Shown one piece after another: positions 1,045-4,950 of a stretch of 13,629 nucleotides of DNA. The position numbers were made by a program, and so were the translations under genes. Numbering within the stretch: position 1 is the stretch's first letter; each line of letters begins with the position of its first letter. The notes beneath the pieces were generated by a model. The model saw nothing but the letters and a program-made list of their open reading frames with translations, searched no databases and was not told the origin of the DNA. The stretch comes from Phycisphaerales bacterium. Lineage in GTDB: Bacteria > Planctomycetota > Phycisphaerae > Phycisphaerales > UBA1924. The stretch spans positions 1 through 13,629 of the forward strand of contig JALOQT010000009.1 of assembly GCA_025453375.1 (NCBI GenBank), given 5' to 3'.

Positions 1045-1753
1045 TCAGCGGCTCGGCGGCTCGACTTTCGCCTCACGCTTGCTGCGGACCACCGCCAGCG
1101 GCAGGCTCAGCAGATACAGCCCCGCCAGCACCGCCAGCGTCAGCCAGGAGTCCTTCACCAGGCACGCCGCGATGATCGCGATCCCCAGCATCAGCGGGAA
1201 GAGGATGCTCCGGTTCACCTTGATGTGCTTGACGGAGATCATCGGAATCGTGCTGACCATCAGCCCCGCGACGAGCACCGTGTGCCCCAGCACGATCCAC
1301 TCCATCCACGGGCCATCCAGCCGCCACCCGGCCCGCTGCTGCCACCCGGTGATCGTCGAGCTGAGGCTGACCAGCAGCGGCATCAGGACGATGAAACTCG
1401 CCGCCGGCGCCGGCAGCCCTGTGAAAAACTTGCTCGGCGCGCTGTTGGCCTTTGCCTTGCCCGCGGCAATGGCAAACCGGGCCAGCCCCAAAGCGGCTCG
1501 TCGCTCGCAGCAGCCGGGCGAGCCGGCCATCAAGGCCGTCAAGCACAAACGCCAGCCCGATCATCGCCACCGCCCGCATCAGCATGTCGTCGTTGCGAAG
1601 CTCGGGGCGCACGTCTGGGCGATACTGCATCGCGAAGAAGATGCTGGCGATCCCTGCGCACAGCGCCGCCGCCGTCAGCAGGTTTGGAATCAACTTGCGC
1701 AGTTCCACCTCGCGCGGCTGGCGTGGCATGTTGGACGCCTCAGGCCCGCTCAT
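1045..1753 (-). pseudogene. pssA: CDP-diacylglycerol--serine O-phosphatidyltransferase, broken by internal deletion and frameshift
   Basis: Would make phosphatidylserine from CDP-diacylglycerol and serine in the inner membrane. The N-terminal part (1753 to about 1487) has LRKLIPNLLTAAALCAGIAS and half of the CDP-alcohol phosphotransferase motif: DGRLAR, eight residues, then G (DG-x2-AR-x8-G). The expected x3-D-x3-D is absent. At about 1484-1489 the homology jumps to another frame, which starts at the later family motif LARFAIA and continues through FFTGLPAPAA and several membrane segments to a TGA at 1045. The segment between SRFGA and LARF, normally some tens of residues with two catalytic aspartates and a membrane span, is missing, and the frames differ by one base. 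The start ATG (1751-1753) overlaps the psd stop as ATGA, typical of translational coupling. As written the gene cannot give an active enzyme. Confidence 0.85.
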
Positions 1754-2439
1754 GCCCGCACTCCGATCACCGTCTCCCCCGCGCGGACCCGCTGGCCGAC
1801 ACTCACGCGAATCTCCGTGCCCGGCGGCATCCAGATCTCCGCCCGACTGCCGAATCGAATCAGCCCGAACCGCTCCCCCGCCGCCACCGTCTGCCCCTCG
1901 CGCAAGTGATTGACAATCCGGCGCGCCACCAGCCCCGCGATCTGCGCAAAGCCCAGCACCCGCCCGCGCGGGTCGCGCATCAAGACGACGCTGCGCTCAT
2001 TGAGCTCGCTGGCCTTGTCAAAGCTCGCGTTGACGAACTGCCCGGGCGAATAGACGATCTTGCTGATCTGCCCTGCACTGATCGACCGGTTCACATGCAC
2101 GTCAAAGAGGTTCAGGAAGATGCTCACGCGCGGCAGCGGCCCGCTCACGCCCATCTCCGCCGCCGCCGCCTGCAGCTCCTTGGGCAGCTCGGCCATGTCG
2201 ACCTTGATGACCTTGCCATCAGCCGGGCTGATCACCGCCTCGGGGTCATCGGTTGATGGTCGCCGATCCGGATCGCGGAAAAACCAATACCCCCACAGCA
2301 CAAACAGCAGCAGCACCCCCGCAATCACCCACGCCACGACACTCTGCGGCGTCAACCACCACACCGCCCCCCCGGCCAGCAGCACGCCAGCCAGCGTCAT
2401 TGGAATCAGCACGATCCACCCTTCGGGCGCAACTCGCAT
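1750..2439 (-). CDS. psd: Phosphatidylserine decarboxylase, short (archaetidylserine decarboxylase-like) form
   Basis: Decarboxylates phosphatidylserine to phosphatidylethanolamine; pyruvoyl enzyme at the inner membrane. 229 residues. Two N-terminal membrane segments (about 8-27 and 34-53) are followed by WFFRDPDR. Family residues are visible: SPADGK with Asp74, FDVHVNR with His115, and the self-cleavage site IRFGSR, where cleavage between Gly197 and Ser198 would leave the pyruvoyl group on the small alpha chain. ATG at 2437-2439 is chosen because homology begins at once and a TATACT box lies 7 bases upstream; no Shine-Dalgarno is seen. An open frame continues far upstream but is only antisense to the neighbouring KS gene. 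The stop overlaps the pssA start (ATGA), so the two PE-synthesis genes form an operon. The enzyme looks intact although its substrate-making partner is broken. Confidence 0.93.
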   Translation of the reverse strand: MRVAPEGWIVLIPMTLAGVLLAGGAVWWLTPQSVVAWVIAGVLLLFVLWGYWFFRDPDRRPSTDDPEAVISPADGKVIKVDMAELPKELQAAAAEMGVSGPLPRVSIFLNLFDVHVNRSISAGQISKIVYSPGQFVNASFDKASELNERSVVLMRDPRGRVLGFAQIAGLVARRIVNHLREGQTVAAGERFGLIRFGSRAEIWMPPGTEIRVSVGQRVRAGETVIGVRA

Positions 2440-2446
2440 AGCCGCC

Positions 2447-2475
2447 AGTATAGATGATCGCCCGCCGACCTGCCC
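2447..2475 (-). promoter_or_regulatory. Candidate psd promoter (GGGCAG-N17-TATACT)
   Basis: Minus strand: TATACT at 2452-2447, 7 bases before the psd ATG, with GGGCAG at 2475-2470 in the -35 place at 17-base spacing. The -10 is good; the -35 does not resemble TTGACA. With this -10 the transcript would start at or within a base or two of the ATG, so the mRNA would be leaderless. Inferred from sequence only. Confidence 0.4.
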
Positions 2476-2571
2476 CAAGGCCCTGACACGATGCAGCGTC
2501 CCTCGGCGGGCCCGACGCCATCCGGCCCCGCACGCGGCTGCTCCACCGGCGCGGCCGGGCGTCAGCGTTTC

Positions 2572-2583: not shown

Positions 2584-3918
2584 ATGCCAGCAACCAAGGG
2601 CCGAAGTGTGGTCGTGACGGGGGTCGGCGCGGTCTCCGCGCTGGGGATCGGCGCCGACGCGCTGTGGGAGGGCCTCTGCGCCGGCAACAGTGGCGTACGG
2701 CCGATCTCGCGATTCGATGCCTCCGGCTTTGCCAGCCGCCTCGCCGGCGAGGTGCCCGACGCGGGCTTCTCGATCCGTGACTTTGTCCCCAAGCACTACC
2801 GCAAGGCGACGAAGGTCATGGCTCGCGACATCGAGCTGGCCGTCGCCGCGGCCAAGGAAGCCAGCGAACGCGCCGGCCTGACGACCCGCGCCCATCTGGA
2901 GGAAGGCGCCACCGAAGGCACGACCTATCCGACCGGGCGCGTCGGTTGCCATATCGGCGCAGGGTTGATCGCGGCGGACAGCGATGAACTCGGCGCGGCC
3001 CTCGCCACCGCGGTGGTCGATGAGGGCGGCACGAAGCGTGTCGATCTGGCCACCTGGGGCCGCAGCGGGATGGACAACCTCACCCCGCTCTGGATGCTCA
3101 AGTATCTCCCCAACATGCTCGCCTGCCACGTGACGATCATCCACGGCTGCGAGGGCCCGAGCAACACCATCACCTGCGCCGAAGCCTCCGGCCTGCTGTG
3201 CATCGGCGAGAGCACGCGCGTCATCGAGCGTGGCGACGCCGAGGCCTGCTTCGCCGGCTCGGCCGAGTGCAAGGTTAACCTCATGGGCCTGCTGCGCATG
3301 CAGTATGCCGGACGCGCCGGGCCGACCGGCGAACATACCGATGGTCGCACGTTCGTCCGCCCGTTTGACGCCCAGGCCCCCGGCGGCGCCGTCGGCGAGG
3401 GTGGCGGGATCGTGGTGCTCGAGTCCGAGCAGTCCGCCGCCGCTCGCGGAGCGACGGTCATCGCCCGCATCGCTGGCATCGGCGCCGGCCACTCGCCCCG
3501 CCAGATCACTGGCGACACGGGTGATGACGGCTTCCTGGCCGCGATCGAGAACGCCACGAGCGACGCCGGGCTCAAGCCGGCGGACATTGACGCGGTCGTC
3601 GTGCTGGGCACGGGCGTCCCGAGTGTTGATGGCGGCGAGGGTGGAGCGCTGCGGACGTTTTTCGGTGGGCAGACGCCGCCGATCGTGACCATCGGGCCGA
3701 ACGTCGGCAACTGTGCCGCGGGCAGTGGGGGGCTGCTGGCGGTCGTCGGTGCGATGATGATCCAGCGTCAGATGATCCCGGCGCGGCTGCACGCCTCGAC
3801 GCCGATGCCCGGCATCGACGCCGGCCCCGCCCCCGCCCGCCAGGCCAACTTGCGAAACGTGCTGGTGGCCAGCTCCAGCCAGGGCGGCCAAAACGCCGCC
3901 GTCATCATGGGCAGGTAG
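2584..3918 (+). CDS. Beta-ketoacyl-ACP synthase (FabF/KAS II fold) homologue lacking the catalytic Cys-His-His
   Basis: 444 residues with the two-domain thiolase/ketosynthase fold: VVVTGVGAVSALG at 9-21, a GPSNTITCAEASG nucleophile-elbow region at 191-203, and a FabF-type C-terminal half. Aligned to FabF on the flanking GPS and SG, the active-site Cys position holds Glu200 (a Cys sits two residues earlier, at 198). The first His (HGTGT in FabF) is Leu341 in VVLGTGVPSVD. The second His (KSxxGH in FabF) is Asn376 in GPNVGNCAAGSGG, and the conserved Lys of that motif is also gone. Normal condensation is therefore not expected. A chain-length-factor-like partner subunit, or a non-condensing role, is possible. 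Start: ATG at 2584, where homology begins, with TATACT 6 bases before it; an earlier in-frame ATG (2491) adds only unrelated residues. Divergent from psd. Frame is clean and codon use matches neighbours, so this is not decay. Confidence 0.88.
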   Translation: MPATKGRSVVVTGVGAVSALGIGADALWEGLCAGNSGVRPISRFDASGFASRLAGEVPDAGFSIRDFVPKHYRKATKVMARDIELAVAAAKEASERAGLTTRAHLEEGATEGTTYPTGRVGCHIGAGLIAADSDELGAALATAVVDEGGTKRVDLATWGRSGMDNLTPLWMLKYLPNMLACHVTIIHGCEGPSNTITCAEASGLLCIGESTRVIERGDAEACFAGSAECKVNLMGLLRMQYAGRAGPTGEHTDGRTFVRPFDAQAPGGAVGEGGGIVVLESEQSAAARGATVIARIAGIGAGHSPRQITGDTGDDGFLAAIENATSDAGLKPADIDAVVVLGTGVPSVDGGEGGALRTFFGGQTPPIVTIGPNVGNCAAGSGGLLAVVGAMMIQRQMIPARLHASTPMPGIDAGPAPARQANLRNVLVASSSQGGQNAAVIMGR

Positions 3919-4053
3919 CAACATGGCTACAGGGCCACAGCGCTACAGCGCTACAGCGCTACATGTTGCCAGTACCACGCCGCGGCCGGATACGGCCTCA
4001 TGTAGCTATGTAGCGCTGTAGCCATGTAGCCATGTATCGCTGTGTAGCCCTAC
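3919..4053. repeat. Inverted array of an 8-bp repeat (TGTAGCNN) between convergent genes
   Basis: The right arm (4001-4048, plus strand) is six consecutive octamers: TGTAGCTA, TGTAGCGC, TGTAGCCA, TGTAGCCA, TGTATCGC, TGTGTAGC. The left arm (3924-3963) has five octamers in the opposite orientation: TGGCTACA, GGGCCACA, then GCGCTACA three times. The arms can pair over about 40 bases around a GC-rich centre (3969-3998). CAACATG (3919-3925) and CATGTTG (3962-3968) also bracket the left arm. The array begins right after the KS stop and runs over the dapB stop codon (4050-4052), so it could fold in both 3' ends and act as a bidirectional terminator or mRNA end protector. No T-tract is present. Confidence 0.8.
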
Positions 4054-4823
4054 CGCATCATGTCTTCGACGGTGTACCACCCGGGTGGGCGGGTGCTGAG
4101 CCATGCCGCAGCGGTGAGTGCGCCGCGGGCGAAGAGGTCGCGGCTGTGGGCTTCGTGCGTCAGGGTGATGGTGTCAAACGGGCCGCGGAAGGTGATGGTG
4201 TGCGTGCCGATGACCTCGCCAACGCGATGGGCGATGATGTCTTGGTCCGCGATAACGCCCCCTCCATCGCGCAGTGCGCTGGCCAATCGCAGCGCGGTGC
4301 CGCTCGGTGCGTCTTTTTTGCGCGTGTGATGCGTCTCGACAACCGACAGGTGATACCCATCGCCATCATCGCCGCGCGCGCTGCGAAGCACCGACGCGAG
4401 ATGACGCGCCGCCGCGGCGACGGCGGCAACCCCAAGGCTCGTGTTCGGTGTCGCCATCACGGGGACATGCGCCGCCAGATCGCGAAGCATCGCGGTGGTG
4501 GATGGGGCGATGCCCGTTGTGCCCGCCAGCAGCGGCGTGCGAGCCTCGCGCGCCAGTGCGATCGATGAAATCAGGCCTGAATCACTGGAGAAATCGATGA
4601 TGCAGCGCGGCGTGCGCATCGCGGCGAGACGCGAGGCATCAATCTCATCGCGCGCGATGAATCGATGCATCGGTGCTTCATCACACGACGAAGAGATGAT
4701 CGATGAACCGGCGCGAACCACCAGCGCGTCGATGACGAACAGTCGATCACGCGAGGCAAGATGCGCGATGCGACGACCCATGCGACCAGCCGCGCCGTGA
4801 ATGATGATGTGGATAGTTGACAT
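4050..4823 (-). CDS. dapB: 4-hydroxy-tetrahydrodipicolinate reductase
   Basis: NAD(P)H-dependent step of the diaminopimelate/lysine pathway, cytoplasmic; supplies peptidoglycan and lysine synthesis. 257 residues, slightly short for the family. Motifs in order: the Rossmann GAAGRMG at 10-16, AGTTG at 100-104, the DapB signature ETHHTRKKDAPSGTA at 163-177 with the catalytic His pair and Lys, RVGEVIGTHTITF at 200-212, and LTHEAHSRDLFARGAL at 221-236. ATG at 4821-4823 is chosen because the Rossmann strand begins directly after it; an earlier in-frame ATG (4871) adds 16 residues without homology. No Shine-Dalgarno; TAGACT lies 10 bases upstream. The gene stands alone, convergent with the KS gene and divergent from the Lys-rich peptide gene. 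Its last codon and stop lie inside the octamer repeat array. Confidence 0.95.
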   Translation of the reverse strand: MSTIHIIIHGAAGRMGRRIAHLASRDRLFVIDALVVRAGSSIISSSCDEAPMHRFIARDEIDASRLAAMRTPRCIIDFSSDSGLISSIALAREARTPLLAGTTGIAPSTTAMLRDLAAHVPVMATPNTSLGVAAVAAAARHLASVLRSARGDDGDGYHLSVVETHHTRKKDAPSGTALRLASALRDGGGVIADQDIIAHRVGEVIGTHTITFRGPFDTITLTHEAHSRDLFARGALTAAAWLSTRPPGWYTVEDMMR

Positions 4824-4950
4824 AGTCGTGACGAGTCTATGGAATGGTGACGAAGGTTGACGGTGTCTCACTCAGCAACAAAAAATCAATCGCCAATGTG
4901 CGAGTTGCTCAAGTGATGGTGGGTGATGCACCGATAGACCAAAAAGATTT

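Follow-up and report, generated by a model that had tools for sequence, protein, structure and literature searches.

A ketosynthase homolog of the Phycisphaerae with glutamate at the nucleophile position: probably the non-catalytic half of a two-part ketosynthase

The stretch of DNA analyzed here (the window) consists of 13,629 nucleotides, at positions 1 to 13,629 of contig JALOQT010000009.1 in the draft genome of a Phycisphaerales bacterium (GCA_025453375.1), and carries a gene encoding a pseudo-ketosynthase of 444 amino acids, called E-KS below, in an open frame ending with TAG (Table 1). E-KS matches PF00109 (E = 1.1e-30) and PF02801 (8.1e-12), the thiolase/ketosynthase (KS) fold spans its whole length, as is the case in FabF, and a KS fold is predicted with high confidence. 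The protein scores 215.2 bits with TIGR03150, the NCBIfam FabF equivalog, the cut-off of which is 493.75 bits. When it is aligned with E. coli FabF, the reference for the catalytic positions (C163, H303, K335, and H340 in the usual numbering), Glu, Leu, Gly, and Asn are found in place of the Cys-His-Lys-His (C-H-K-H) active site. An earlier note on this DNA, made from the letters alone, had claimed that the triad was replaced (E200, L341, and N376) and the Lys of the KSxxGH motif lost (G371 in the alignment) in a clean frame with intact fold motifs, and all of this is borne out. We consider it likely that E-KS acts as a beta subunit without catalytic activity in a ketosynthase heterodimer (KS-beta, resembling a chain length factor, CLF) belonging to a dedicated second module of the type II fatty acid synthase (FAS II) kind.

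The motif GPSNTITCAEASG of the window protein aligns with GPSISIATACTSG of FabF without any gaps, so that C198 stands opposite Thr161 and not on the nucleophile, the placement which according to the earlier note would have overturned its reading. C198 was also considered as a shifted nucleophile and was ruled out on the grounds of this gap-free alignment and of its non-conservation in more distant relatives.

Relatives of E-KS were taken from a search of 5.8 billion proteins, in which 7,997 candidates were scored and 120 of the 4,941 matches were listed (window included), and from a scan of GTDB species genomes, in which at least 587 relatives were confirmed and the best 80 loci by match were used. 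Among these 80 loci, 73 have at least 1,500 bp of downstream sequence, and in 67 of them an intact C-H-K-H ketosynthase lies directly downstream on the same strand (the script counted 66, and L075, with a 4-bp overlap, was added by hand). In 35 of the 69 script-counted pairs, the active KS comes immediately next (tblastn gap of 0–164 bp), and in the other 34 a gene encoding a conserved GxxExxY / PDDEXK_3 protein (TIGR04256, PF13366) stands between the dead and the active KS (L006:9515-10096, L010:9232-9825, and 32 other loci); this gene remains beside the active KS in three loci with split pairs (L238, L243, and L244). In each of the six genomes where the two are not adjacent (L005, L014, L019, L028, L050, and L071), a canonical FabF and a separate C-H-K-H KS with the motif of the partner are encoded elsewhere. 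The partner KSs of four of these genomes were included in the tree described below, and all four were placed in the partner clade; L103 and L104, the partner KSs of two non-adjacent genomes, were left out of the tree and assigned by motif and profile score. In L055, the dead and the active KS are merged in a single frame of 902 amino acids, which is a natural fusion. The model of this fusion (predicted local distance difference test 81.1, predicted template modeling score 0.84, with three alignment rows over the active half) has the scores that would be expected if the two halves packed against each other. Partial extra copies of the pseudo-KS were found 2–3 kb downstream of the full gene in two loci (L249:7990-8334 and L071:11600-11752). 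The solitude of the gene reported in the earlier note, which had seen no obvious active partner, therefore holds for the window itself and not in general: an active KS is a conserved neighbor elsewhere. Since a working copy adjoins it in most of the related planctomycete genomes checked, E-KS probably makes up the half of a two-part enzyme that does no catalysis, in a second fatty acid pathway on which little work has been done.

The distribution of the pair was surveyed with profiles of the pseudo-KS and of its partner in 119 other genomes of the window's class, each at least 90% complete. The pseudo-KS is matched in 115 of these genomes and the partner in 116, both being present in 114 and neither in two. 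In 106 of the 114 genomes holding both, the two genes are adjacent on one strand within 851 bp; among the other eight, they are 4 kb apart in one and 50 kb apart in another, they lie on other contigs or far away in five, and in the last one (G061) the contig breaks off at the pseudo-KS, directly beside which a fragment of the partner is found. One genome, G209, carries two complete pairs of adjacent KS-beta and KS-alpha genes (C39 and C68). L005, the closest relative with a name (67%), has its partner on another contig, behind a GxxExxY gene (L238). In a wider sample of the phylum, 64 of 147 genomes match the pseudo-KS at 1e-60; since nine of the 30 best matches, which were fetched, are C-H-K-H enzymes and 21 are dead, the figure of 64 is not a count of dead KSs. 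Judging from these matches, E-KS is a subfamily found throughout the class, with relatives in other classes.

Position 200 is occupied by Glu in 117 of the 120 listed proteins, Gln in two, and Asp in one, and by Glu in 76, Gln in two, and Asp in two of the best 80 loci (the fused frame of L055 included). H187, S193, N194, T197, C198, S202, L205, E272, D349, and G375 are invariant in the 120 listed proteins. In the same proteins, the first His position holds Leu (46), His (22), Met (20), Gln (11), Thr (7), or Ala (6), and the second holds Asn (81), Asp (20), Ser (6), Gly (4), or His (3). Since both His positions vary so widely, the constraint falls on the acidic replacement of the nucleophile: of the three replacements that the earlier note had proposed to look for in close homologs, Glu is nearly fixed, whereas Leu and Asn are not conserved in the sequences of the family. 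The ratio of nonsynonymous to synonymous rates (dN/dS) amounts to 0.05–0.14 for E-KS and 0.02–0.09 for the partner KS in the same nine pairs of related loci (two pairs having a dS above 1.5 and one being nearly identical), which indicates that the family is under purifying selection and that its state is maintained rather than decaying. Four of the best 80 loci (L023, L034, L037, and L066) belong to records titled Leptolyngbya, Cyanobacteria, Bacteroidia, and Vicinamibacteraceae, which are likely to be misnamed or misbinned planctomycete contigs.

The invariance of H187, T197, and C198 in all 120 listed proteins, the strong purifying selection, and the existence of unlinked dead copies in other families would also suit a free-standing enzyme with a new chemistry, bringing an acyl group from outside FAS into the pathway, as was proposed in 2009 for the noncanonical FabFs of planctomycetes (PMC2649909), with Glu200 or C198 perhaps being catalytic. 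This explanation is unlikely, however, since C198 is a Cys in only 91% of the 79 KS-beta rows taken from the genome loci, since relatives further away have Ala, Leu, Ser, or Gln there, and since the linkage, the fusion, and the co-occurrence with one particular KS clade point to a subunit.

A quick tree was built with 98 ketosynthases from 16 of the best 80 loci and from loci L085-L164, leaving out KSs of fewer than 380 residues, four rows more than 97% identical, and then 12 more rows. The active partners (KS-alpha, 32 rows, SH-aLRT support 99) and the KS-beta proteins (47 rows, 98) form clades that are each other's sisters (95), and canonical FabF is separate from both. The 44 dead copies all fall into one clade (100), the sister of which consists of the C-H-K-H KS-beta proteins of family f17, where both ketosynthases have an intact C-H-K-H site. 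In the sister group within the class, the four catalytic positions read E-H-K-H, E-T-K-H, or D-H-K-N, and the others have mostly lost the remaining residues. These intermediate states suggest that Cys was lost before the other catalytic residues. The near-fixed Glu, the dN/dS values, this tree, the linkage, and the class-wide occurrence together support what the earlier note had suggested, namely a selected non-condensing role comparable to that of KS-beta.

CLFs usually have Gln at the nucleophile position. With the KS-alpha/KS-beta (CLF) systems of type II polyketide synthases (PKS), such as those of actinorhodin (1tqy) and ishigamide (Iga11-Iga12, 6kxd), E-KS shares the KS fold, the loss of the nucleophilic Cys, and the active KS neighbor, the latter being encoded alongside in the relatives (the 67 loci, the 106 class genomes, and the one fusion) and not in the window; it differs from them in having Glu, and in occurring in nearly every genome of a class, whereas type II PKS CLFs occur in scattered clusters. 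When one Streptomyces CLF was joined to the dead clade, the approximately unbiased (AU) test did not reject this placement (p-AU = 0.552), and the tree with the CLF inside the dead clade scored 5.8 log units above the one from the free quick search. E-KS might accordingly descend from a true type II PKS chain length factor that reached the phylum by transfer, instead of arising from a duplication inside it, but we regard this as improbable: the dead clade's supported neighbors (98 and 100) are KSs from its own phylum that still have an intact C-H-K-H site, the test rests on a single CLF with a very long branch (2.21), and the profile scores are higher with FabF (255 bits) than with the actinorhodin CLF (195 bits). 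We do not assign E-KS to the CLF family of actinobacteria, as it lacks the Gln and as the tree places the CLF neither firmly inside the dead clade nor firmly outside it.

The exchange of the nucleophile for a related side chain and the adjacent partner KS might also suggest a malonyl-ACP (acyl carrier protein) decarboxylase of the KSQ type, making starter units with Glu instead of Gln. This is very unlikely: both His residues, which are reported to be indispensable for decarboxylation (PMC2649909), are replaced along with the Gln in the window protein (E200, L341, and N376) and their positions vary freely in the family, in which Gln is rare (the two listed proteins and two loci mentioned above). 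A decaying pseudogene or an assembly artefact, as might be suspected in a draft metagenome-type sequence of 377 contigs where a neighboring pssA-like gene is split over two frames, has next to no probability in view of the dN/dS values of 0.05–0.14 and of the presence of the gene in 115 of the 119 other class genomes.

In deep relatives, the pair belongs to a five-gene operon in the order FabZ-like dehydratase, ACP, FabZ-like dehydratase, KS-beta, KS-alpha, which was found in L230-L233 (sister group within the class), L163 (family f34), and L160-L162 and L164 (family f17), so that the earlier proposal to look for an ACP as a conserved neighbor found a dedicated extended ACP along with two dehydratases. 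A FabG-like reductase is encoded inside the cluster in L147, L155, and L163. The ACP of the module is a long form (127–135 amino acids in the six aligned) with the motif AESID, and in each of the 20 fetched loci that match it in full, both dehydratases adjoin it. Matches to the long ACP of at least 117 bits were obtained in 22 of 25 genomes (over positions 28–127 only in G008), and G000 and G001 yielded nothing but a short ACP of the canonical type. In the majority of the derived members that were examined, DH1-ACP2-DH2 has become separated from KS-beta/KS-alpha. In three other families of the phylum (f27, f60, and f67), KS-alpha has stayed in the operon and dead KSs (with Asp, Glu, or Ser) are located elsewhere. 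The second dehydratase of f17 lacks the His motif HFPG (L160:6747-7217 and L161:7196-7648), and its sequence makes it a possible pseudo-dehydratase partner in the module. The genes flanking the module, which were read by eye without any family search, pointed to no product. The module would be a second FAS II-like or highly reducing type II PKS-like pathway existing beside the canonical acpP-fabF in these genomes.

The two proteins differ at several sites aligned with FabF. In the segment aligned with FabF 63–73, which we take to be the ACP-docking segment of FabF and which corresponds to the basic stretch of E-KS, the KS-beta proteins have P63, K64, K65, K68, M70, R72, and D73 in all 79 rows, and in the 67 KS-alpha rows the residue seen most often is D at position 64 (67%), S at 65 (28%), A at 68 (49%), and L at 72 (61%). 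Conservation within the family is highest in a block opposite FabF 121–150, presumably a region of the dimer interface. In this block, W, K, and Y occur at FabF positions 133, 136, and 137 in all 79 KS-beta rows (W170, K173, and Y174 in the window), and the 67 KS-alpha rows have E at 134 (99%), E at 136 (94%), Q at 137, and E at 138 (100%). At FabF position 108, which like 133 is assumed here to line the acyl pocket, Glu takes the place of Ile in all 67 KS-alpha rows; Glu108 was also observed in the KS-alpha rows of the other families inspected, except f17, where it is Lys. The f17 KS-beta proteins, with their Cys intact, already have PLWLLKHLPNM and a similar basic stretch (PNRKSLKIMG and the like). 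We propose that the active KS and E-KS may form a KS-alpha/KS-beta heterodimer in which KS-alpha would carry out all the condensation and KS-beta, which alone of the two has retained the basic stretch, would provide the ACP-docking surface. W170, K173, and Y174 of KS-beta would reach across the dimer interface and form one wall of the acyl pocket, whereby KS-beta might set what is made on the dedicated ACP, and Glu200 would occupy the old nucleophile site, blocking acylation there.

Several observations weigh against this heterodimer. Among the draft genomes of the class, G238 has an E-KS without a partner, G260 and G266 have a partner without an E-KS, and G207 and G212 have neither; the pair is unlinked or 50 kb apart in five of the eight other genomes of the window's family. 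No long-ACP match was obtained in G042, which is listed as 100% complete, and several genomes of families f27, f60, and f67 carry at least two dead KSs, which a strict one-to-one pair does not predict. The packing of the L055 fusion may reflect AlphaFold's knowledge of KS dimers, since only three rows cover the active half. The partner KS and the long ACP were not found in the window's own genome (377 contigs), which shows the canonical acpP-fabF pair only, although the absence of the partner says little, as this genome is 55% complete. The FabF of the same genome (C310) was rejected as the dedicated partner, since it is 36% identical to the partner clade and groups with the canonical FabFs. 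Lastly, heterodimer formation, docking, and chain-length control are all steps that we infer.

Proteins resembling E-KS have been tabulated previously. Two FabFs of Rhodopirellula baltica were listed in 2009 with Asp163 (NP_865682) and Glu163 (NP_866153), and together with altered FabFs of Kuenenia they were suggested to recruit non-FAS products (PMC2649909). These noncanonical FabFs of R. baltica, known here by their residues alone, have an acidic residue at the Cys163 position, as E-KS does, and by residues alone the one reading Glu-His-Lys-Asn is equivalent to the E-H-K-N rows of this family (PMC2649909). In Kuenenia, kuste3603 to kuste3606 encode an ACP, a FabZ, a FabF, and a noncanonical FabF (PMC4790861), a set which by its description resembles the module, although the noncanonical FabFs of Kuenenia have Val, Phe, or Ser at the nucleophile site instead of Glu. 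In the parts of this literature consulted, the R. baltica and Kuenenia proteins are treated as divergent paralogs and linked to ladderane lipids, and neither a pairing with an active KS nor an occurrence throughout a class nor an intact ancestor is described. In the ishigamide synthase, the ACP is reported to contact mainly the CLF, and an active-site Asp to promote release (PMC8358021). AmcF-AmcG of the cispentacin pathway is a heterodimer of an active KS with a KS-like "cyclization factor" devoid of functional motifs (PMC10698177), and by this description it is comparable to the E-KS pair, although AmcG is of a separate, reduced type. The aryl polyene ApeO-ApeC is a KS-CLF heterodimer working with a ketoreductase, dehydratases, and two ACPs (PMC8358021); in comparison, E-KS is full length. 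Planctomycetes are among the phyla with KS-CLF hits in a survey where many pairs outside actinobacteria were of the FAS-FAS type (PMC10132072), and these may include E-KS/active-KS pairs that were not recognized as such. Searches of an open-access library turned up no description of the pair, of the module, or of the intact ancestor.

In the window, E-KS is flanked by dapB and a phosphatidylserine decarboxylase gene. The two halves of the pssA-like gene (CDP-alcohol phosphatidyltransferase), which lie in different frames owing to either an assembly error or a real lesion, each have a Pfam match. A scan of the window for promoters and terminators found nothing.

Table 1. Features of the window and catalytic or conserved sites of E-KS.
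Feature	Position	Strand	Remarks
E-KS (KS-beta-like pseudo-ketosynthase), coding sequence	2584..3918	+	444 amino acids, open frame, stop TAG
Basic stretch, codons 70-81, aligned to FabF 64-72	2791..2826	+	K, K, K, R at FabF 64, 65, 68, 72
Most conserved block of the family, codons 158-187	3055..3144	+	WG...PLW.LKYLPNM..CHVTI.H; aligned to FabF 121-150
Glu at the nucleophile (Cys163) position, codon 200	3181..3183	+	FabF alignment
Leu at the first catalytic His (His303) position, codon 341	3604..3606	+	FabF alignment
Gly at the Lys335 position, codon 371	3694..3696	+	FabF alignment
Asn at the second catalytic His (His340) position, codon 376	3709..3711	+	FabF alignment
pssA-like gene	1045-1753		split over two frames
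Phosphatidylserine decarboxylase gene	1750-2490	-	
dapB	4050-4871	-	

KS-CLF pairs are known from polyketide and polyene clusters, and the present pair occurs in 114 of the 119 other class genomes. The fact that it is so widespread in the class and has relatives in other classes makes it look like a part of core lipid metabolism. It would thus be a KS-CLF-like system of core metabolism in which an acidic residue replaces the usual Gln of CLFs. We give about an even chance to the broader proposal that Planctomycetota have a second, probably essential core lipid pathway with a heterodimeric condensing enzyme, one KS of which would have kept catalysis and given up ACP docking while the other did the reverse. 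This split would have been fixed while both sites were intact, as in f17, and would have been followed by the decay of beta, first from Cys to an acidic residue and then at His and Lys, resulting in a housekeeping KS-CLF system outside polyketide clusters. Since the family holds both the state where the two sites are intact and several stages of decay, it becomes possible to test how a catalytic homodimer turns into a heterodimer with one catalytic and one non-catalytic subunit. For Planctopirus limnophila, five KS paralogs forming one group have all been reported to be essential (PMC10632474), and this group would fit a required pathway. The module may also bear on the synthesis of ladderane lipids in anammox bacteria.
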